Of a stretch of 35,777 nucleotides of DNA, positions 12,827 to 24,660 are shown one piece after another. The stretch comes from an uncultured Desulfobulbaceae bacterium (GTDB lineage Bacteria > Desulfobacterota > Desulfobulbia > Desulfobulbales > Desulfocapsaceae): assembly GCA_903887485.1 (NCBI GenBank), contig CAISPV010000078.1, positions 1 through 35,777 of the forward strand, written 5' to 3'. The position numbers and the translations under genes are program-made. The notes beneath the pieces are model-generated. The model searched no databases. It saw nothing but the letters and a program-made list of their open reading frames with translations, and was not told where the DNA came from. How positions within the stretch are numbered: the first letter of the stretch is position 1; each line of letters starts with the position of its first letter.

Positions 12827-13888
12827 ATGAAAACCATAACCCCCAAAGCAACACTTTTAATCGTTGAAGATGACCCATTGGTGCGGCAGAGTATGGCCGT
12901 TTTTCTGGAGAACAGTGATTTTCATGTCCTCCAGGCCAGAAATGGCCAAGAAGGACTTGAACTCTATACCCAGAAAACTCCTGATCTCATGATCGTCGAT
13001 CTACAGATGCCGGAGATGAGCGGTATTGAATTACTGGCGGCCATCAAAAGCGATCTTCCTGTATTCCCGACCATCGTCGTCTCCGGCACAGGCTCCCGGG
13101 ACGATGTCATAGCAACCCTGAAGCTCGGGGCTTGGGATTATCTGACCAAACCCATTGAGGATCTGGCGGTCCTTGAGCACGCCGTGAACAAGGCCCTGGA
13201 AAAGGCCTGCCTGATCACGGAAAACAAACATTACCAGCTCCATCTGGAAGAAGAGGTCGACCAGCGAACTGCGGAACTGCAACGGCGGGAGCAGGAGCTG
13301 AAGATGACCTTGATCAGTATTGTGAATGTCGTGGCCTCCATGGTCGAAAAACGTGACCCTTATACGGCCGGCCACGAACGCAGGGTGACCTCTCTGGCCC
13401 TGGCCATTGCCCGAGAACTGGAACTGGATGAGCAACGCTATGAGGGATTAGGTCTGGCCGCCACCATCCACGATCTGGGCAAGGTAGCGATCCCCAGTGA
13501 GATCCTCTCCAAACCCGGCAAGCTCACCAACATTGAGTTCCAACTGATCAAGACCCACGCCCAGATAGGTTATGACATACTGACCGAGGGGACGGCTGAA
13601 TTCCCCTGGCCCATCAAGACCATTGTCCATCAGCATCATGAACGCATAGACGGCAGCGGTTATCCCCTTGGCCTCAGCGGCCAGGACCTGCTCATTGAAT
13701 CACGCATCCTGGCGGTTGCCGATGTGGTTGAGGCCATGGCCTCGCACCGGCCTTACCGGCCCTCTTTGGGCATTGAGGTGGCGCTTGCCGAAATTACCAG
13801 GGGCCAGGGCACCAGCTATGATACCGATGTGGTCACCGCCTGCCTCGCTCTTTTTGCCAACAAACGGTTTTCTCTCGAATCCTCATGA
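12827..13888 (+). CDS. response regulator with HD-GYP domain (c-di-GMP phosphodiesterase, RpfG-like)
   Basis: A 353-residue protein that probably degrades c-di-GMP when phosphorylated. The N-terminal receiver (about 8-122) has LLIVEDDP, phospho-acceptor D58 (IVDLQMPEMSG) and a conserved lysine in LTKP. A coiled coil at about 130-165 (EEEVDQRTAELQRREQEL) leads to an HD-GYP domain at about 170-345, with H215-D216 in IHDLGK, the downstream HHERIDGSGYP motif (G278-Y279-P280) and VADVVEAM. Metal ligands typical of active enzymes appear present. Its last four bases overlap the start of the next gene (ATGA), so the membrane kinase that follows is the likely cognate kinase. The start ATG has only a weak AAGGTAG-like site upstream. 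Confidence 0.92.
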   Translation: MKTITPKATLLIVEDDPLVRQSMAVFLENSDFHVLQARNGQEGLELYTQKTPDLMIVDLQMPEMSGIELLAAIKSDLPVFPTIVVSGTGSRDDVIATLKLGAWDYLTKPIEDLAVLEHAVNKALEKACLITENKHYQLHLEEEVDQRTAELQRREQELKMTLISIVNVVASMVEKRDPYTAGHERRVTSLALAIARELELDEQRYEGLGLAATIHDLGKVAIPSEILSKPGKLTNIEFQLIKTHAQIGYDILTEGTAEFPWPIKTIVHQHHERIDGSGYPLGLSGQDLLIESRILAVADVVEAMASHRPYRPSLGIEVALAEITRGQGTSYDTDVVTACLALFANKRFSLESS

Positions 13889-16527
13889 TCAAGAGATTAC
13901 CCGCTCCTTCCAACCTCAAGGCCAGCCAGTGGCGAAAGTTCATGGCCACTTTTCTGGCGTTTGTCTTTTCTTTGGCCTCTTGCCTCGGCATCCTCCTCTA
14001 CCTTCATGCCAAGGAAACCACAGATCACAATCTCGAACTGATCCTGCACGAACAGCAGATGCATATAAGCATGGCGAAAACCCTGCTCCACCGGGAACTG
14101 CATAACCTGTCAGCAAACTTTCTTGCGTTTACCAGCTCGCCTAGTATCCTTCACATTATTGTCAACCAGGATGACCAGATCAGATGGCAAAGGTTTAATG
14201 AAAGCCTCAGCAATTTTATCCAGAAAGGAGAGGGATATATCCAGGGCCAGGTTTTCGACAACAACGGCAGGGAGCTTGTCCGGGTGGAAAAGAGAGACAA
14301 TCAGGCAACGATCATTCCCCTCCAGGAACTGGAGAGCAAAGCAGCGGACGATTTTCTTGATGGCCTGCAATTGCAGGGCCGTGGCCAGGCAACTATCTCG
14401 CCCATAACCCTGGCCCGCGATAAAAAGGGCGAGCTAACGCGGCCATTCCGCCCCATATTCCGCATGGTCGCCCCCATCTTTGACCAGTACAATCAAAAAA
14501 TCGGAACCCTCCTCTTCGCCTTCCAAGGACAACCTCTCCTTGATCTCTTTAGCAAGGCAATGGTTCACCCGCATAACCCTGATGAACATTATACCAACAA
14601 CAACCCCCAGATACTGAACCATGAAGGGTATTGGCTGCTGGCCCCCGACAAGAAGGATGAATGGGGATTTGTCCGTGATCCGCAACGCCGTTTTGACCGG
14701 CGTTTCCCGGAGATCTGGAAGACCATGCGCGAGCAGGGACAGGGCCAGATCAAGACCGCGGACGGACTGTTCACCTTTGTGACCTTGCCCCTGGTAGCAG
14801 ACAAGGGAAGCGTAAGGGAAAGCGGCAGCGCCCAGCCCGCGGCCCTCAGCAAAGAAGTTCAACAGGAGGCATCCCCTTTTCTGATCCTGTTCAATCAGGT
14901 TTTCCCAGAGGAGCTGGCCCGCCTGAATAGCCAGACCCAGCGGACCCACCTCATCTTGTTTCTGATCGTCATACTGGCCTCACTGCCCCTGTTCTTGTGG
15001 CTAACCATGCTCCTGAGAAACAACCGGGAGAACAAAAAAAAGCTGCAAATCCAGGAACAACGTTTCCGCCTGCTCTATGAAAAGGCCCCGCTGCCGTACA
15101 TGTCTCTGGATCAGAGTGGACATGTGCTGAATATCAATCAGACCTGGATCGCGCTTCTGGGGCACACCAGAAACGAAGTGATTGGCCGATGGTTTGGTGA
15201 TTTTGTGGAGCCTCAGTCATTGGCCCATTTCCTGGGATCTTTTCCCCTGTTTACTGAGAAAGGTGAAATGGAGAGCTATGAAGTTGAGCTTGTCAGAAAA
15301 GACGGTTCCACGTTCCAGGCCTCCTTCAACTGTGAGCATACCCCCGGTGACCAGGAGCCCTTTTCCCAGACCCACTGTATCTTCACGGATATTACCGAAC
15401 TGCGGGCAGAGCAGCAACGAACGGAACACCTCAACATCCTGCTGCAGACCTTCATCGAAATCCATCGACTCATGGACCAAGAGAGAGAAAAACAGAGGCT
15501 GGTGCAGAAATGCTGTGAAATCCTGGTCGAAAGTCGCGGTTACTCCAGCACCTGGATCATCCTTCTTGATAAAGACGGGAAAATTGAGCTCCGCGCTGAA
15601 TCCGGCTTGCTCCACAACCTCGATCAGCTTGAACGGCAGATCAATCTGGGTAAACTACCGCCCTGCATCCTGGAATGCAGAGAGCGCCAAGGAATAGCGG
15701 TCATTGACACGCCCTTGCTCTTCTGCGATGAATGCCCCACAGCAGGTAACTATCCAAGAAAAGGGATCCTGTGCGCCCCCCTGACGTATAACTCCAGCGT
15801 CTATGGCTATCTGCACGTCTCACTCCCCCACAACTTCATCCAGGATCAGGAGGAAAAAAATCTGTTCGGGGAAATCGCCAAGGATATTAGTTATGCCCTC
15901 TTCAACCTGAACCAGCAACAGGAAAAGATCGAGGCGGAAACGTCCCTGCACCTGAACGAAGAGCGGCTGAGGGGTATCACCGATTCTGCCCAGGATGCCA
16001 TCCTGATGATGGACCCCCAGGGGGTTATCTCCTTCTGGAATCCGGCAAGCGAGAGAATCTTCGGATATCGCGCAGAGGAGGCCTTGGGGAAGGATCTGCA
16101 TACACTGCTGGCGCCCTCGCGCTATCATGCAGCACATCAGGCAGCCTTTCCGGAATTCTTACGGAGCGGTCACGGCAATGCCGTTGGCAAGACAATTGAA
16201 CTGCAGGCCCTGCGCAAAGATGGCCGGGAAATACCTGTCACCCTGTCGTTGTCGGCGATCTTCCAGGATGGAAGCTGGCAGGCGGTAGGGATACTGCGTG
16301 ACATGACTGACCGTAAGCTCATGGAAGAGCAGATGCTGCAATCGGAAAAGATGTCCACCATTGCCGGTCTGGCCGCGGGCGTCGCCCACGAGATCAACAC
16401 CCCGCTCTCCGCCATCCTCCAGTCCATCCAGGTCATCCGCCAGAGCCTTGACCCGGAACTTGCCAGAAATCAGGAGATTGCCGACCACTGTGGCCTTGAT
16501 CTCGCCAAGGTGCAGGACTATTTTTAA
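13885..16527 (+). CDS. membrane histidine kinase 3, N-terminal part up to in-frame stop (Cache-PAS-GAF-PAS-HisKA)
   Basis: An 880-codon reading frame that overlaps the HD-GYP regulator by four bases. It has a helix at about 18-42, a periplasmic Cache-like sensor at about 50-345, and a second helix at about 350-375 (LILFLIVILASLPLFLWL). Then come PAS (about 392-515), GAF (about 520-685, with a C-D-E-C pair), PAS (about 695-815), and HisKA helix 1 with AAGVAHEINTPL, phospho-acceptor H835. It then meets TAA at 16525-16527, after VQDYF. The same frame continues directly with KKEINFFMDGIRESA and the rest of a kinase, so either the gene carries a single nonsense change (T to A at 16525 would give AAA, lysine) or the kinase is made as two polypeptides. 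Alone, this part has no ATP-binding domain. Confidence 0.85.
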   Translation: MIKRLPAPSNLKASQWRKFMATFLAFVFSLASCLGILLYLHAKETTDHNLELILHEQQMHISMAKTLLHRELHNLSANFLAFTSSPSILHIIVNQDDQIRWQRFNESLSNFIQKGEGYIQGQVFDNNGRELVRVEKRDNQATIIPLQELESKAADDFLDGLQLQGRGQATISPITLARDKKGELTRPFRPIFRMVAPIFDQYNQKIGTLLFAFQGQPLLDLFSKAMVHPHNPDEHYTNNNPQILNHEGYWLLAPDKKDEWGFVRDPQRRFDRRFPEIWKTMREQGQGQIKTADGLFTFVTLPLVADKGSVRESGSAQPAALSKEVQQEASPFLILFNQVFPEELARLNSQTQRTHLILFLIVILASLPLFLWLTMLLRNNRENKKKLQIQEQRFRLLYEKAPLPYMSLDQSGHVLNINQTWIALLGHTRNEVIGRWFGDFVEPQSLAHFLGSFPLFTEKGEMESYEVELVRKDGSTFQASFNCEHTPGDQEPFSQTHCIFTDITELRAEQQRTEHLNILLQTFIEIHRLMDQEREKQRLVQKCCEILVESRGYSSTWIILLDKDGKIELRAESGLLHNLDQLERQINLGKLPPCILECRERQGIAVIDTPLLFCDECPTAGNYPRKGILCAPLTYNSSVYGYLHVSLPHNFIQDQEEKNLFGEIAKDISYALFNLNQQQEKIEAETSLHLNEERLRGITDSAQDAILMMDPQGVISFWNPASERIFGYRAEEALGKDLHTLLAPSRYHAAHQAAFPEFLRSGHGNAVGKTIELQALRKDGREIPVTLSLSAIFQDGSWQAVGILRDMTDRKLMEEQMLQSEKMSTIAGLAAGVAHEINTPLSAILQSIQVIRQSLDPELARNQEIADHCGLDLAKVQDYF

Positions 16528-16530
16528 AAA

Positions 16531-16536
16531 AAGGAG
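16531..16536 (+). promoter_or_regulatory. internal AAGGAG that could drive re-initiation after the kinase 3 stop
   Basis: A perfect AAGGAG begins four bases after the TAA, 12 bases before the ATG at 16549. The spacing is long for an efficient site, so re-initiation is possible but not strongly supported. Confidence 0.35.
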
Positions 16537-16548
16537 ATCAATTTTTTC

Positions 16549-17130
16549 ATGGATGGCATCCGGGAGTCGGCAATCAAGTCGGCAAAAATTATAAACAACC
16601 TGCTCCAGTTCAGCCGTCCGCAAAAGGTGGAATTCGCCCCGGCAGATCTGGCCGTGTTGCTCGACAAATCAGTGGAGCTGGCCAAAAATGATTACGTCCT
16701 GAAAAAAAATTGTGATATCCTCAATATAGAGATCAGCAGGGAATACACCCTGAACCTGCCTCCGGTCTCATGCGTGGCCATAGAGATCGAACAGGTGTTC
16801 ATCAACCTGCTGAAAAACGCAGCCCAGGCCATGAACGACCAGCCGGAGCCAAAGCCCAAATCCCGGATTATCCTGCGCACCCGGCAACAGGGTGAGATGA
16901 TCCGGGTGGAGATAGCAGATAATGGCCCCGGCATGGACGAGAAGACCAAGTGCCATATCTTCGATCCCTTCTTCACCACCAAAGATATCGGGGTGGGCAC
17001 CGGGCTTGGCCTGTCCGTTTCCTGGACCATCATTGTCACCAAACATGGGGGACAGTTGACCGTTCACTCGGAGCCTGGTCAGGGAACAACATTTATCATT
17101 GAACTGCCGCTCAACCATGAAAAACAGTAA
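16549..17130 (+). CDS. histidine kinase 3, C-terminal part (DHp helix 2 + HATPase)
   Basis: This 193-residue segment is the same frame as the preceding gene, resumed after its stop codon. It begins with DHp helix 2 (ESAIKSAKIINNLLQFSRP), then a HATPase domain with N box INLLKNAAQAM (about 85-95), G1 box DNGPGM (about 123) and G2 box GTGLGLS (about 150), and ends ELPLNHEKQ. It has no receiver domain, so phosphotransfer to the REC-HD-GYP protein upstream is likely. If translated on its own from 16549 it would have to associate with the N-terminal part to act. Otherwise it is the tail of a nonsense-inactivated kinase. Confidence 0.75.
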   Translation: MDGIRESAIKSAKIINNLLQFSRPQKVEFAPADLAVLLDKSVELAKNDYVLKKNCDILNIEISREYTLNLPPVSCVAIEIEQVFINLLKNAAQAMNDQPEPKPKSRIILRTRQQGEMIRVEIADNGPGMDEKTKCHIFDPFFTTKDIGVGTGLGLSVSWTIIVTKHGGQLTVHSEPGQGTTFIIELPLNHEKQ

Positions 17131-17160
17131 CTCAACACGGAAAGTTGAGTTTTGATGTTT
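17129..17160 (+). terminator. candidate Rho-independent terminator after kinase 3
   Basis: AACTCAAC (17129-17136) and GTTGAGTT (17144-17151) form a perfect 8-bp stem around a 7-base loop, followed by a T-rich tail. The stem begins at the kinase stop codon. It is AT-rich and so may be weak, but it would separate this unit from kinase 4. Confidence 0.45.
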
Positions 17161-17238
17161 GTCACCATAATCCTGGCAGGATTTTTACTCTCCCCGCCAA
17201 GTCCAAGGATTCAATTCGCTTTCTAGAAGGTGGTGCTC

Positions 17239-20200
17239 GTGAAGAAACAGATCGAACAGGACCTTTCCCTGCTCAAACGGTTTACCCTTGCCGCCACGGT
17301 TATCTGGACCATCATCCTCGCCTCTTCCCTCACCTGGAACGTCATCCGCGCCAGGCAGGACTCCCTGGAGATGGCCAAGACAATGGCACGGGCCTATTTC
17401 GACAAGGACATGGCGTTCCGACAGTGGGGCGCTTCCCACGGCGGCGTCTATGTGCCCATCGACGAACAGACCCCGCCGAACCCCTACCTGGCCCATATCC
17501 AGGAACGCGACATCACTTCCCCCTCCGGCAAAAAGCTAACCCTGATGAACCCGTTCTACATGCTGCGACAGATGACGAACCAATATGCCGACCTCTACGG
17601 CGTAAAGGGAAAGATCACCAGCCTCAAGGCGCTCAATCCGATCAACGAGCCGGACACTTGGGAGCGCAACGCCCTCAAGGCCTTCGAACAGGGAGCGAAG
17701 GAGGTTTCCGAGCTGACAAATCTGGATGGGCAGCCGTTTCTGCGGCTGATCCGGCCCATGATCACCCAGGATGGATGCCTGAAATGCCATGGCCACCAGG
17801 GGTATAAGGTGGGAGATGTGCGGGGCGGGGTGGGGATAGCGGTTCCTATGGGGCCTTACCTGGCGATATACAAGGACCAACGCCTCTCTTTATTTCTTAC
17901 CCACGGTCTGGTCTGGTTCCTGGGACTGGGGGTGCTCTTCTTGCTGGTCAACCGGGGGAAAGGCTTGCTCCTCTCCCTGGCGAAGCTATTCGAGGAAAAG
18001 GCGAAGAGTGAGGCAAGATTGAAGGACGCCGAGCATGTTGCGCAACTGGGACATTGGGAACTGGACCTGGCTACAGGCACCTTGTCCGGGTCAGACGGAA
18101 TCTTTCAAATCTTCAATGTTGCCCCTCAAGAATTTGCTCATTCTTGTGAAGATTTTTTGGATCTCGTCCATCCTGATGACCGTGAATTTTTAAAGAAAAC
18201 CTATTCCGAATCAGTAAAAAACAAAACCACGTATGATATTGTTCACCGGATTTTGCTCAAGGATGGAACGGTCAAGTATGTGAATGAAAGAGGTAAAACC
18301 TCTTACGATGAAAACGGCAACCCTTTACGTTCATTGGGGACTGTTCTTGATGTCACCGACCGCACACAGGCGGATGAACACGTACGTCTCCTTGTCGAGC
18401 TTGTCGATATAGCCCCGGCAGCAATTACCATCCACGACCCTGATGGTAATTATCTCTATGTCAACCAGACAGCCTGTGACCTTCATGGCTATTCGCGGGA
18501 GGAGTTACTCGCTTTGAATATCCATGACCTTGATATTCCTGAGGACCAACCGTTGATTGCATCCCGGATAAAACAGATCGTTGAAACCGGCACGGCATCC
18601 TTTGAGGTGAGCCACTACCGGAAAGACCGATCAATCCTGCCGCTTCAGCTCTTTACAAAAAGAGCTGAATGGGGTGAGAAAAAGGTGATTCTCAGCGTGG
18701 CCTCCGATATCACCGAGCACAAAAGAACTGAGCAAGCCTTAAGGGAAAAAGAGAACCGATATCGCACCCTGCTTGACCAGGCAACGGATGCTATCTTTGT
18801 CAGTGATATAAACGCCCACTTGATTGATGCCAACAGAAAGGCCTGTGAAGGCCTCGGCTATACCCGGGAAGAGCTGCTGGCACTAAGCCTTTCCGACGTT
18901 GATCCCAATTTTGAGACAGAACAGCACGCTCAGAAGCTTTGGGAAGGACTCTCTGCCGGCAAGACCTTGACGACAGAAAGCAGTCATCGGCGCAAGGACG
19001 GCTCACTCTTTCCTGTGGAAATTCATATCGGCAAGCTGGAGATAGGTGGCCAGCCAGCAATCCTTGGTATTGCCCGCGACATCAGTGAGCGCAAGCAGGC
19101 TGAGGAAGAAATCAAGGAGCATCAGGTCTTTCTGCAAAATGCTCTGGATGCCCTGACCCATCCCTTCTATATCATCGACGCCAATGACTATACCATCAAA
19201 CTGTCCAACAAGGCCTCTCATTTCGGCGAATATCGGGAGGGGACAACCTGTTTCCAGTTAACTCACGACCGGAGCGAACCCTGCGCAGGTGATGAACATC
19301 CCTGCTCTCTGAGAGAGATAAAAAAAACGAGGCAGCCGGTAGTTGTTGAACATATTCACACTGATCAAACCGGAAAGAAAACAAGTGTCGAGATCCATGC
19401 CTATCCGATCTTTGACAACCAGGGCAATCTCAGTCAGGTTATTGAATATTGCCTGGATATCAGTGAACGCAAACAGGGCCAGGAAGAACGGAGCCGTCTG
19501 GTAACCGCCATCGAACAAAGCATAGACAGCGTTGTCATTACTGATAAAAAGGGCATGATCCAGTATGTCAACCCCGGTTTTGAGCAGATCACCGGCTACA
19601 GCGAAGAGGAAGTGATTGGCAAGAACCCGAGAATTCTCCAAAGCGGCAAGCATGATGCCCTCTTTTACCAGGAGATGTGGAGGACGCTGACCAGTGGCAA
19701 AGCATGGCAGGGGCACCTGATTAACAAGAAAAAAGACGACACCCTGTTTGAGGAAGAAGTCTCGATCACCCCAGTCCTGAATGAAGTTGGCGAAATTATC
19801 AATTATGTGGCGGTAAAACGCGATGTAACAGGAGAGATGCGACTCGAGGAGCAGCTCAGGCAGGCCCAGAAGATGGAGGCCATCGGCACCCTGGCCGGCG
19901 GCATCGCCCATGACTTCAACAACATCCTGGCCCCCATTCTCGGGTACTCCGAGATGGCCATGGCCAGACTTTCCCCAAACGACCCTCTTGCTGCCGATCT
20001 GCAGCAAGTCATCACCGCTGCCGGACGAGCCAAGGGTCTGGTGCAGCAGATTCTCGCCTTCAGCCGCCAGGCCCCGCATGAGAGAAAGCCGTTTCAGCCA
20101 CATCTGGTGGTGAAAGAGGCACTCAAATTGCTCCGGGCCTCCCTGCCCTCCACCATTGAAATCCGCGAGGAGATTTCCCCGGATTGTGGCGCTATCATGG

Positions 20201-21006
20201 CCGATCCAACCCAGATTCACCAGATCCTCATGAATCTCTGCACCAACGCCTACCATGCCATGCGGTTAACCGGCGGCGTCATCGGGGTGAGGCTCTCAAA
20301 AATCACCATTGACGATGCCGGCAGGGTACCCAACACCGAACTTGCCCTGGGAAACTATGTATTACTCGAGGTTAGTGATACCGGTTGCGGCATGGAACAA
20401 AAAACGCTGGCCCATATCTTTGACCCCTACTTTACCACTAAGGACAAGGGGGAGGGCACCGGCCTCGGTCTTGCCGTGGTCCACGGTATTGTCAAAAGCT
20501 ATCAGGGACATATTACGGTGTACAGCGAGCCGGGCAAAGGGACTCGCTTTCATGTCTATCTGCCGAGGTTAGCCGAAGCCCCTTCTCTGGTTGAGGCTGA
20601 CCGCAACGAGACCATCCCTGCCGGCACGGAACGAGTGCTGGTGGTGGATGATGAGGCCGTGATCACCGCCATGCTTGAGACCATTCTCACCAGACTTGGC
20701 TATCAGGTGAGATCTTCCAGCAACAGCCTGGAGGCCTTGGCCCTTATTGAACAGGACCCCATGGCCTTTGACCTCCTGATTACCGACATGACCATGCCGC
20801 ATCTGACCGGCTTTGAACTCACGGCCAAGGCGCTGGCCATCCGCTCAGATCTGCCGGTCATCCTCTGTACCGGCTTCAGCGACCTGATCAACAAAGAACA
20901 GGCCCAGGCCCTGGGTATCCGAGTCTATCTGATGAAACCCGTTTCGGTGCGGGAGCTGGCCCTGGCGGTGCGGAAGGTGCTGGATGCAAAGAGGGAAATA
21001 TCGTGA
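17239..21006 (+). CDS. hybrid histidine kinase 4: haem DUF3365 sensor, 5 PAS, HisKA, HATPase, REC
   Basis: A 1255-residue membrane hybrid kinase. Between helices at about 14-34 and 215-237 is a periplasmic DUF3365 (Tll0287-like) domain with a c-type haem motif C180-L-K-C183-H184. The first part carries the family pattern FDKDMAFRQW and GGVYVP. Five PAS domains follow; PAS4 has C671, C682 and C689 with the same C-x10-C-x6-C spacing as in kinase 1. HisKA has AHDFNN with H891. The ATPase domain has NLCTNA, DTGCGM and GTGLGL. The receiver has D1183 (TDMTMP). The frame allows GTG starts at 17230, 17233 and 17239; I chose 17239 because AGAAGG is eight bases upstream. The sensor suggests detection of redox state or a gas ligand such as CO or NO, which is inference. 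PAS3-PAS5 DNA is nearly the same as in kinase 1. Confidence 0.92.
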   Translation: MKKQIEQDLSLLKRFTLAATVIWTIILASSLTWNVIRARQDSLEMAKTMARAYFDKDMAFRQWGASHGGVYVPIDEQTPPNPYLAHIQERDITSPSGKKLTLMNPFYMLRQMTNQYADLYGVKGKITSLKALNPINEPDTWERNALKAFEQGAKEVSELTNLDGQPFLRLIRPMITQDGCLKCHGHQGYKVGDVRGGVGIAVPMGPYLAIYKDQRLSLFLTHGLVWFLGLGVLFLLVNRGKGLLLSLAKLFEEKAKSEARLKDAEHVAQLGHWELDLATGTLSGSDGIFQIFNVAPQEFAHSCEDFLDLVHPDDREFLKKTYSESVKNKTTYDIVHRILLKDGTVKYVNERGKTSYDENGNPLRSLGTVLDVTDRTQADEHVRLLVELVDIAPAAITIHDPDGNYLYVNQTACDLHGYSREELLALNIHDLDIPEDQPLIASRIKQIVETGTASFEVSHYRKDRSILPLQLFTKRAEWGEKKVILSVASDITEHKRTEQALREKENRYRTLLDQATDAIFVSDINAHLIDANRKACEGLGYTREELLALSLSDVDPNFETEQHAQKLWEGLSAGKTLTTESSHRRKDGSLFPVEIHIGKLEIGGQPAILGIARDISERKQAEEEIKEHQVFLQNALDALTHPFYIIDANDYTIKLSNKASHFGEYREGTTCFQLTHDRSEPCAGDEHPCSLREIKKTRQPVVVEHIHTDQTGKKTSVEIHAYPIFDNQGNLSQVIEYCLDISERKQGQEERSRLVTAIEQSIDSVVITDKKGMIQYVNPGFEQITGYSEEEVIGKNPRILQSGKHDALFYQEMWRTLTSGKAWQGHLINKKKDDTLFEEEVSITPVLNEVGEIINYVAVKRDVTGEMRLEEQLRQAQKMEAIGTLAGGIAHDFNNILAPILGYSEMAMARLSPNDPLAADLQQVITAAGRAKGLVQQILAFSRQAPHERKPFQPHLVVKEALKLLRASLPSTIEIREEISPDCGAIMADPTQIHQILMNLCTNAYHAMRLTGGVIGVRLSKITIDDAGRVPNTELALGNYVLLEVSDTGCGMEQKTLAHIFDPYFTTKDKGEGTGLGLAVVHGIVKSYQGHITVYSEPGKGTRFHVYLPRLAEAPSLVEADRNETIPAGTERVLVVDDEAVITAMLETILTRLGYQVRSSSNSLEALALIEQDPMAFDLLITDMTMPHLTGFELTAKALAIRSDLPVILCTGFSDLINKEQAQALGIRVYLMKPVSVRELALAVRKVLDAKREIS

Positions 21007-21173: not shown

Positions 21174-22553
21174 ATGAAAATCGTTCGATCATTAACTCTC
21201 CATTATTTATATTTAACTGCAGGGGTATGGACGCTCATCATGTTTGGCTTGGCTGTGCATGAAACGCTTCATATGCACGAGGAAACAAAGGAACGGGCAA
21301 CAAATGAGGCCCGTATCAATTTTAAAAAAGATCAGGCTTTACGCCATTGGGTCGCATCCCATGGCGGCGTCTATGTCCCAGTCGATGCCCAGACACCACC
21401 TTCCAAGTATCTTTCCAATGAGCCGGAGAGAGATATCCAGACGCCGTCGGGGAGACACCTCACCCTGATGAACCCGGCCTATGTTGTCCGGCAGATGAGC
21501 GAGTTATATGCTGAACTTTATGGAATTGGGGGCCATATCACCAGCCTGAAACTGCTCCGGCCCGAAAACGCAGCAGATGATTGGGAAAAGAAAGCCTTAG
21601 AATCCCTTGCGCAAAAAGGTTCAGAAGTTAAAGAGTTTACGAATATTAAAGGAGAGCCATTCCTGCGTTTCATGCAACCGATGCTCATTACTCAGCCCTG
21701 TCTTAAGTGCCATGGCCATCAGGGGTATAAGGTGGGCGATATTCGGGGAGGCGTGAGTGTATCCATACCAATGGCTGAGTACCTGGCAAGAGAAGGTCAT
21801 GAACGTTTAACCCATCTGATAGCATATGTTTTACTGTGGTTTACTGGCCTGACTATTATTTGGCTGGGTGGTCGGAAGTTATTGTACAGTATGCAGGAAC
21901 GCGACCAGGCCCATGAAGAATTGTTGAAGTATAAACACTATCTTGAGGAAACAGTAGAGAGCCGTACTGTAGAATTGACCGCGGCGAACCAGAAATTAAA
22001 ATATCTTTCCCTTACCGATGGCCTGACCAATATTGCCAATCGTCGCTATTTTGATGAGTTGATCCATAAAGAATGGCAACGAGCTCTACGGAAAGCCAGT
22101 CCCATTGCCTTAATTATGGTCGATATTGATTATTTTAAATTATTTAATGATTCATATGGGCATCAAAGTGGTGATGAATGTCTCAAAAAAGTGGCCATGG
22201 CTCTGAATGTGGAAATGAAACGATCGGGTGATTTTGTGGCGAGGTATGGTGGGGAAGAATTTGCAGTAGTCTTGCCCGATACCGAGCTGGCAGGGGCCCT
22301 GGCTATTGCAGAGAACATGAGTAGAAATGTCGCGAACCTCCAGATTGAACATGCAGACTCAGATGTAAGTGATCATGTTACTATCAGTTTGGGGGTTACC
22401 TCGGTCATACCGGTGCAAAATTTAGACGTTGGCTGCCTCGTTCAGCAGGCAGATAAAGCCTTGTACGCTGCCAAAGAACAGGGGCGTAATCAGATACGGT
22501 TTTTCTCAAGTAAGGCTCTTGCAGGTAAGCGAGCCTGCGAGACTCCGAAATGA
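21174..22553 (+). CDS. diguanylate cyclase with periplasmic haem (DUF3365) sensor
   Basis: A 459-residue membrane protein that should make c-di-GMP. A helix at about 10-28 is followed by a DUF3365 domain with C176-L-K-C179-H180 for c-type haem, sharing FKKDQALRHW, GGVYVP, SGRHLTLMNP and HGHQGYKVGD with kinase 4 upstream. A second helix lies near 215-234, then a coiled coil and a GGDEF domain at about 281-445. The active loop is GGEEF (359-363), and RSGD five residues before it matches the product-inhibition I-site. The last 12 or so codons (KALAGKRACETPK) are not GGDEF sequence: they are encoded by the start of dispersed repeat copy 2, so the natural C-terminus seems to have been replaced. 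It stands 167 bases after kinase 4 on the same strand and may be its functional partner. Confidence 0.92.
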   Translation: MKIVRSLTLHYLYLTAGVWTLIMFGLAVHETLHMHEETKERATNEARINFKKDQALRHWVASHGGVYVPVDAQTPPSKYLSNEPERDIQTPSGRHLTLMNPAYVVRQMSELYAELYGIGGHITSLKLLRPENAADDWEKKALESLAQKGSEVKEFTNIKGEPFLRFMQPMLITQPCLKCHGHQGYKVGDIRGGVSVSIPMAEYLAREGHERLTHLIAYVLLWFTGLTIIWLGGRKLLYSMQERDQAHEELLKYKHYLEETVESRTVELTAANQKLKYLSLTDGLTNIANRRYFDELIHKEWQRALRKASPIALIMVDIDYFKLFNDSYGHQSGDECLKKVAMALNVEMKRSGDFVARYGGEEFAVVLPDTELAGALAIAENMSRNVANLQIEHADSDVSDHVTISLGVTSVIPVQNLDVGCLVQQADKALYAAKEQGRNQIRFFSSKALAGKRACETPK

Positions 22554-22782: not shown

Positions 22783-24660
22783 ATGGCAACAACTAAAAAA
22801 ACCATCGAAGAGAAAACGATCTGGGATGATGCCCGGCAGATGCTGCGCAAGGCGGAACGAGACGGGGTTGAAACTGCCTGGGACCGCCTGGAACACCAGA
22901 CTCCTCACTGTACATTCTGCGAAAGCGGCCTTTCCTGCCGAAACTGCACCATGGGGCCTTGCCGAATCAGCAAGAAAGCCCCTCTGGGGGTCTGTGGCGC
23001 CGATGCCGATGTGATCGTGGCCCGCAACTTTGGCCGCTTTGTGGCCGGGGGCTCTGCCGGCCATTCCGATCATGGCCGTGACTGTATTGAGGCCCTGCAT
23101 GCCGTGGCCCACGGACTGACCAAGGATTATACCATCAAGGATGAAGCCAAGCTGTTCCGCATTGCCGGTGAGTTGGGAATTGCCACCGAAGGACGCCCAA
23201 TCCTTGATGTTGCCAAGGATCTCTGTGATGTCTTTTATGCCAATTACGGCAGCCTGCTGGAGGAGCTTTCTTTCTTATGCCGGGTTCCGGAAAAACGAAA
23301 GCAGATCTGGCGAAATCTTGGCATTACCCCCCGTGGCGTTGACCGTGAGATTGCCGAGATGATGCATCGCACCCATATGGGTTGTGATAACGATGCCGCC
23401 AACACCATGCTGCACAGTGCCCGCACCTGTCTGGCCGATGGCTGGGCCGGATCGATGATCGCCACCGAGATTTCCGATATTCTCTTCGGCACGCCCAGCC
23501 CCAGAAAGTCGAAAGTGAACCTTGGCGTTATCAAAGAGGATCAGGTCAACATCCTGGTGCATGGCCATAACCCCATTGTCTCCGAGAAAATTGTCGAAGC
23601 GGTCAACGACCCGGAACTCATCGCCCTGGCCAAGGCAAAAGGAGCTGCCGGCATCAACCTGGCCGGGCTTTGCTGTACCGGTAATGAGTTGATGATGCGC
23701 CAGGGCATTCCCCTTGCCGGCAACCACCTGATGACTGAGCTGGCCATCGTCACCGGCGCAGTCGAACTCATCGTCGTTGATTATCAGTGCATCATGCCGA
23801 GCATGGTCACGATTGGCAATTGCTACCATACCAAGATGGTCACCACCGCCGACAAGGCGAAATTTACCGGGGCCGAGCATGTAAAATTTGAGATGCACAA
23901 CGGGATGGCGCAGGCGCGCAAGGTTGTCCGCATGGCCATTGAGCGTTTTCCCTTACGCAATAAAGCGCGGGTTGAAATTCCCCAGGGACCGATTGACATG
24001 GTTACCGGTTTCTCCAACGAAACCCTCCTGGCAGCCATGGGCGGCACCCTGACGCCACTCATTGAGGCGATCAAGGCCGGGAAGGTCAGAGGCGCAGTGG
24101 CCATCGTCGGCTGCAACAACCCCAAGTACCAGCAGGATCACTGCAATGTCAACCTGGCCAAGGAGCTCATCAAAAAAGATATCCTGGTGCTGGTGACCGG
24201 TTGCATTACCAGCGCCACCGGCAAGGCCGGTCTTCTGGTGCCGGAGGCCATTGCGATGGCAGGGCCTGGTCTCAAGGAGATTTGTGGATCTTTAGGTATC
24301 CCGCCGGTCCTGCATATGGGCAGTTGTGTTGACAATGCGCGAATCCTGCAACTTGCCGCCCTCCTTGCCAATGAACTTGGGGTGGATATCTCCGACCTGC
24401 CTTTGGCCGGGTCATCCCCGGAATGGTATTCAGAGAAGGCCGCCGCTATTGGCTTGTACTGTGTTGCCTCCGGGATTTACACGCACCTCGGCCATCCTCC
24501 CAACATCACCGGCTCCGCAGTGGTGACCAACCTGGCCCTTGCAGGACTTGACGATCTGCTTGGCGCCTGCTTTGGTATTGAACCGGACCCATTCAAGGCT
24601 GCTGATCTCATTGATAAGCGGATCAGACAAAAACGCAAGGCCTTAGGACTTGGAGAATAA
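22783..24660 (+). CDS. cooS: anaerobic carbon monoxide dehydrogenase catalytic subunit
   Basis: A 625-residue Ni-Fe CO dehydrogenase, which interconverts CO and CO2 and passes electrons to a ferredoxin-type carrier. C-cluster ligands are all visible: His260/262 (HGHNP), C298 (LCCTGNE), C336 (DYQCIMP), C444 (GCNNPK), C474 (TGCITSATGKAG) and C515 (HMGSCVDNAR). The likely proton-relay residues H94/H97 and K552 are also present. B-cluster cysteines are C52, C55, C60 and C71 (GLSCRNCTMGPCRI). The bridging D-cluster site is C43-x2-C46, the short form known from Desulfovibrio vulgaris CODH with a [2Fe-2S] cluster, rather than C-x7-C. AGGAGA precedes the ATG. No cooF, cooC or acetyl-CoA synthase genes are nearby. 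No CooA-type palindrome (TGTC with GACA) is visible upstream. The next gene follows after three bases. Confidence 0.97.
   Translation: MATTKKTIEEKTIWDDARQMLRKAERDGVETAWDRLEHQTPHCTFCESGLSCRNCTMGPCRISKKAPLGVCGADADVIVARNFGRFVAGGSAGHSDHGRDCIEALHAVAHGLTKDYTIKDEAKLFRIAGELGIATEGRPILDVAKDLCDVFYANYGSLLEELSFLCRVPEKRKQIWRNLGITPRGVDREIAEMMHRTHMGCDNDAANTMLHSARTCLADGWAGSMIATEISDILFGTPSPRKSKVNLGVIKEDQVNILVHGHNPIVSEKIVEAVNDPELIALAKAKGAAGINLAGLCCTGNELMMRQGIPLAGNHLMTELAIVTGAVELIVVDYQCIMPSMVTIGNCYHTKMVTTADKAKFTGAEHVKFEMHNGMAQARKVVRMAIERFPLRNKARVEIPQGPIDMVTGFSNETLLAAMGGTLTPLIEAIKAGKVRGAVAIVGCNNPKYQQDHCNVNLAKELIKKDILVLVTGCITSATGKAGLLVPEAIAMAGPGLKEICGSLGIPPVLHMGSCVDNARILQLAALLANELGVDISDLPLAGSSPEWYSEKAAAIGLYCVASGIYTHLGHPPNITGSAVVTNLALAGLDDLLGACFGIEPDPFKAADLIDKRIRQKRKALGLGE

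Follow-up and report, generated by a model that had tools for sequence, protein, structure and literature searches.

The DNA analysed here, which we call the window, is the whole 35,777-nucleotide stretch at positions 1 to 35,777 of contig CAISPV010000078.1 (GenBank assembly GCA_903887485.1), from an uncultured Desulfobulbaceae bacterium whose draft genome comprises 3.19 Mb in 124 contigs and is 97.7% complete. On its forward strand, a gene for a response regulator with HD-type output (RR-HD; Response_reg and HD_5 in Pfam; 12827 to 13888) precedes the gene of its partner kinase, and the two overlap in an ATGA, the stop of the former sharing bases with the start of the latter (ATG 13885). The first part of the kinase (13885 to 16527, forward strand) encodes 880 amino acids, carries the Pfam domains HK_sensor_dom_bact, PAS, GAF, PAS and HisKA in this order, and ends at an in-frame TAA (16525 to 16527). 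The HisKA match (PF00512, residues 829-873) scores 26.9 bits, which is exactly the cut-off score. Its helix 1 contains the H-box AHEINTPL, with the phospho-accepting histidine expected of a sensor histidine kinase.

Beyond this TAA, the same frame is open again for 200 codons (16528-17127) up to a terminal TAA at 17128-17130. HATPase_c was found at residues 84-196 of this second part (90.1 bits), and what we take to be its N, G1, F and G2 motifs are intact by eye. Since HATPase_c lies downstream of the TAA, HisKA and HATPase_c do not share one chain, as they would in a sensor histidine kinase. A Shine-Dalgarno-like AAGGAG (16531 to 16536) and an ATG (16549) follow on the same strand; the latter would open a candidate second chain of 193 amino acids (16549 to 17130), comprising nearly all of DHp helix 2, according to the predicted structure, and HATPase_c. 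The open reading frames thus agree with the sequence-only reading, which had described an in-frame TAA in an otherwise open frame, with an AAGGAG and an ATG within 25 bases of the stop.

Contig C43 of the same genome holds an uninterrupted paralogue of the kinase (hereafter C43), whose DNA matches the focal copy at 90% over the final 1.2 kb and which has CAA at the codon in question. For a wider comparison, 58 genomes including its own were searched, and a threshold of E ≤ 1e-60 returned matches in 19 genomes (20 rows). Ten of the genus's other 16 genomes carry a close homologue covering the site (72-83% identical), one (G007) has a more distant partial homologue, and five gave no match at this threshold. 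The codon alignment at the site therefore holds 11 close homologues, namely C43 and the ten from other genomes of the genus, and their codons are CAA, CAG, GAA, GAA, GAA, GAA, GCA, GAA, CAA, GCC and CAG. None of the 11 has a stop there; the TAA is private to the focal copy. Of the other nine rows, one is the window itself; six are distant homologues, which have a residue at the stop position in a 17-sequence alignment; and two are unaligned at the site, one ending before it (L021, in G048) and one with no stop flagged in the search (L027, in G007). The stop flagged in G001, a TGA, marks the natural terminus of that gene.

Within the organism's own genome, a stop inside the match was found in the focal gene alone among 63 kinase-module matches, 59 of which start at profile position 58 or beyond, so that it was chiefly helix 2 and the ATPase part that this comparison covered. 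An order-wide search of 257 genomes, with ten candidates scored per genome, gave a match at E ≤ 1e-30 in 212 of them. Among the matches listed, to which these figures apply rather than to a full census, the ten other rows flagged for a stop were all gene ends, with the stop in the last 1-3 codons. A scan of the genome_contigs collection returned just seven distant loci, at 26-55% identity.

The sequence-only reading had weighed a fresh mutation or a sequencing error against a kinase made as two chains. It had asked for a comparison with relatives, and uninterrupted genes in all of them make up one half of what it named as telling against its view. The absence of the stop from all 11 close homologues favours the fresh mutation: as is typical of a young pseudogene, the disabling change is missing from the orthologues and from the paralogue alike.

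The alignment to C43 runs without gaps across the site, which indicates a substitution rather than a frameshift, as the earlier reading had held. In the immediate surroundings, 5 of the 9 bases at 16524-16532 differ from C43, and the stop is located in a T5-A7 run. These two features, together with the state of the genome as a draft of 124 contigs, could point to an artefact of sequencing or assembly that hides a sense codon; uniform shuffling gave P = 0.05 for such a cluster anywhere in the last 751 bases. We nevertheless consider an artefact quite unlikely. The differences are substitutions that leave the frame intact, unlike typical homopolymer errors, and several of the letters (TTT, AAA) are shared with relatives, so that the tract looks like inherited sequence. 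Furthermore, copies mixed during assembly would be expected to yield CAA, as in C43, and not TAA.

The gene is a mosaic. In a tree of the sensor part (residues 1-501; ten rows, G003 and G009 being excluded as they are without most of that part), the focal gene clusters with the G001 and G013 long forms (support 100/100). Like the focal gene, these long forms have an extra PAS segment and overlap with the RR-HD gene. An RR-HD gene also lies upstream of the kinase in C43 and in all ten relatives compared. In a tree of the catalytic part (residues 821-1081, 12 rows), the focal gene groups instead with C43, with moderate support (90/91). Corresponding dS values to C43 were 0.51, 0.29, 0.13 and 0.17 for residues 1-700, 701-820, 821-880 and 882-1081, respectively, while dS to G001 rose from 0.32 (residues 1-501) to 0.72 (882-1081), with a value of 0.26 over 821-880, a short and conserved segment. 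Gene conversion is the natural reading of the discordant trees and of the shift in dS along the gene, and the pattern suggests that the catalytic half was converted by the C43 paralogue (15398-17131 against L002 899-2632). Just upstream of the site, 102 bases (16381-16482) are identical between the two copies. The following 158 bases (16483-16640), in which the stop lies, hold 22 differences, 16 of which are A or T in the focal copy and G or C in C43. This patch may be a remnant of the gene's own older sequence.

Where the focal gene has its terminal TAA (17128-17130), the codon in C43 is CAA and the frame continues for another eight residues; several relatives also end near there, so this TAA is probably harmless. 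C43 (L028 / L036) has GAGLGL at what is presumably the G2 box, where the other rows of the 17-sequence alignment have GTG (15 of 16) or GPG (1 of 16).

The position of the break was examined on an AlphaFold2 model of the DHp-ATPase part of the C43 paralogue, built from the 17-sequence alignment (mean pLDDT 79.6, pTM 0.63). In the numbering of this model, the two long helices are predicted at residues 2-43 (helix 1) and 74-99 (helix 2), with two small ones between them (49-58 and 62-71). Block pLDDT is 82-87 for residues 41-80 and lower (53-71) up to residue 40, within helix 1. The stop maps to residue 70, where the second small helix ends, and the ATG at 16549 to residue 78, the fifth residue of helix 2. 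By this model, the break sits in an insertion that separates the two long helices, just ahead of helix 2, which bears out the earlier placement of the stop between the two DHp helices. Translation from the ATG would retain 22 of the 26 predicted residues of helix 2.

In our judgement, this locus is read most simply, and probably correctly, as a duplicated kinase with a young nonsense mutation. One of two RR-HD and kinase pairs in the genome would have gained a recent nonsense substitution between the DHp helices. Ribosomes would stop there and release an 880-residue chain with the sensors and the phospho-accepting histidine. Without helix 2 and the ATPase domain, this chain should be unable to autophosphorylate. 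Since dS to C43 is as low as 0.13-0.17 in residues 821-1081, a similar uninterrupted catalytic module exists in the cell, and the paralogue may make the loss tolerable. The remainder of the gene is undamaged, in line with a young change. Against this reading stand the second part, which appears to be without clear decay, a putative restart signal that is uncommon by chance, and a lysine codon in that signal that is private as well.

Selection on the second part was assessed from its divergence. After the stop, dN/dS between the focal copy and C43 is 0.32. With G004 and G008 as reference, the focal copy has 9 synonymous and 11 non-synonymous changes and C43 has 6 and 10, respectively, while 10 changes could not be polarised. 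The totals, 20 against 16, are no marked excess on the focal side, and nothing in these comparisons points clearly to decay of the second part. A young stop would leave such a picture, and so would, equally, a maintained second chain.

The absence of a marked excess thus also suits the other reading, in which the kinase would be made as two chains: translation would end at 16527 and restart 21 bases later at the ATG, aided by the AAGGAG. We hold such a restart to be possible, if rather unlikely. The sensors and the histidine-bearing helix 1 would then be on the first chain and helix 2 with the ATPase domain on the second, and both would assemble into a functional DHp bundle, an arrangement to which we likewise give a low probability. 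In its favour, the second frame is open with HATPase_c present, and the modelled break falls in the inserted inter-helix segment, with the ATG five residues into helix 2.

The restart signal itself argues both ways. The AAG (Lys) codon that makes the AAGGAG is private to the focal copy; 10 of the 11 close homologues have an arginine codon there (AGG, AGA, CGG or CGC), and one has AAT (Asn). The stop and this lysine codon, both private and one codon apart, could together constitute a plausible stop-and-restart. This pairing speaks most strongly in favour of two chains, yet it concerns one site in one genome, and the arrangement was found in none of the 11 close homologues. Moreover, the ATG is merely an ordinary methionine codon common to 9 of them. 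The spacing from AAGGAG to the ATG is 12 bases, which grades as poor or weak, against 7 and 5 bases at the window's two other starts with an AAGGAG; weaker Shine-Dalgarno cores at other starts in the window lie 1 to 20 bases from the start. An exact pattern for the 3′ end of the 16S rRNA gave no match in the draft genome.

How often such an arrangement would arise by chance was estimated from the 2666 codons in eleven genes of the window that a single substitution would turn into a stop, a test that was designed after the site had been seen. Under a strict definition (an in-frame ATG within 27 bases and a six-base Shine-Dalgarno core 3-14 bases upstream of it), 14 of the 2666 comparable codons (0.5%) qualified. 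Five-base cores gave 39 (1.5%) and four-base cores 96 (3.6%). The loosest definition, with four-base cores and with GTG and TTG allowed, gave 244 (9.2%).

A full-length kinase produced by stop-codon readthrough, or by slippage at the T5-A7 run, appears very improbable to us. In its favour, the frame is open on both sides of a stop that lies in a homopolymer run, but the TAA is not conserved. The region 16490-16600 folds no better than its shuffles (z = 0.17), so no RNA element for readthrough was detected there, and inspection of the sequence before the stop found no correctly phased canonical slippery heptamer. Slippage at the T5-A7 run was set aside on inspection, as the stop starts at the last T, ahead of most of the A's, and a second slip would have to compensate for the first.

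Separate kinase fragments that work together have precedents. In 1998, Park, Saha and Inouye reportedly reconstituted EnvZ from two domains, so that separate fragments of a HisKA kinase functioned in concert. That system is likewise one of separate fragments, but its cut is said to have been engineered between DHp and CA, leaving the helix pair whole. The mycobacterial pair Rv0600c/Rv0601c is a split kinase. CheA3/CheA4 of Rhodobacter sphaeroides is a split CheA, with P1 on one protein and P3-P4 on the other, and its function was shown in vitro (PMC3591291). If the two-chain reading holds, the locus resembles this system in carrying the phospho-accepting histidine and the ATPase domain on two proteins; it differs in that CheA3/CheA4 is of CheA type and cut between whole domains, whereas the present cut lies inside DHp and is known from sequence. 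Hik36-Hik43 of Synechocystis is similarly a kinase encoded by two genes, which are far apart, and their physical interaction was shown by two-hybrid assay. DIM, CA and REC lie on Hik43, while HPt, judging from a figure legend, is presumably part of Hik36 (PMC7656254). The division of both systems between whole domains, rather than within the helix pair, speaks against two chains here (PMC3591291, PMC7656254). In the open-licence literature searched, so far as its texts were available, we met no description of a natural break between the DHp helices.

Among its closest known likenesses is a nonsense-interrupted paralogue, or young pseudogene, of a sensor histidine kinase of PAS type, with a single private stop in an otherwise open gene and a close uninterrupted relative in the genome; the difference here is the Shine-Dalgarno-like motif and ATG directly after the stop and the second part without clear decay. 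If the stop is a plain nonsense mutation, the locus represents another duplicated sensor kinase lost after gene conversion and has limited general interest. Should both chains be made, the birth of a split kinase would have been caught very soon after the event, and a natural DHp four-helix bundle would be assembled from separately made helices, which bears on the evolution of split kinases. A natural kinase recently divided within its DHp helix pair, whose small reinitiated chain might also pair with the C43 module and couple two sensor pathways, is an unlikely extension of this idea.

The kinase lies in a region (4318-34946) dense in signalling genes, with four more large kinases, three response-regulator genes and two GGDEF proteins. 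Directly downstream, a hybrid kinase (17230-21006) and a GGDEF protein (21174-22553) are adjacent, and both start with a Tll0287-like sensor domain. A gene of the prismane/CO dehydrogenase family (22783-24660) is located amid these signalling genes.
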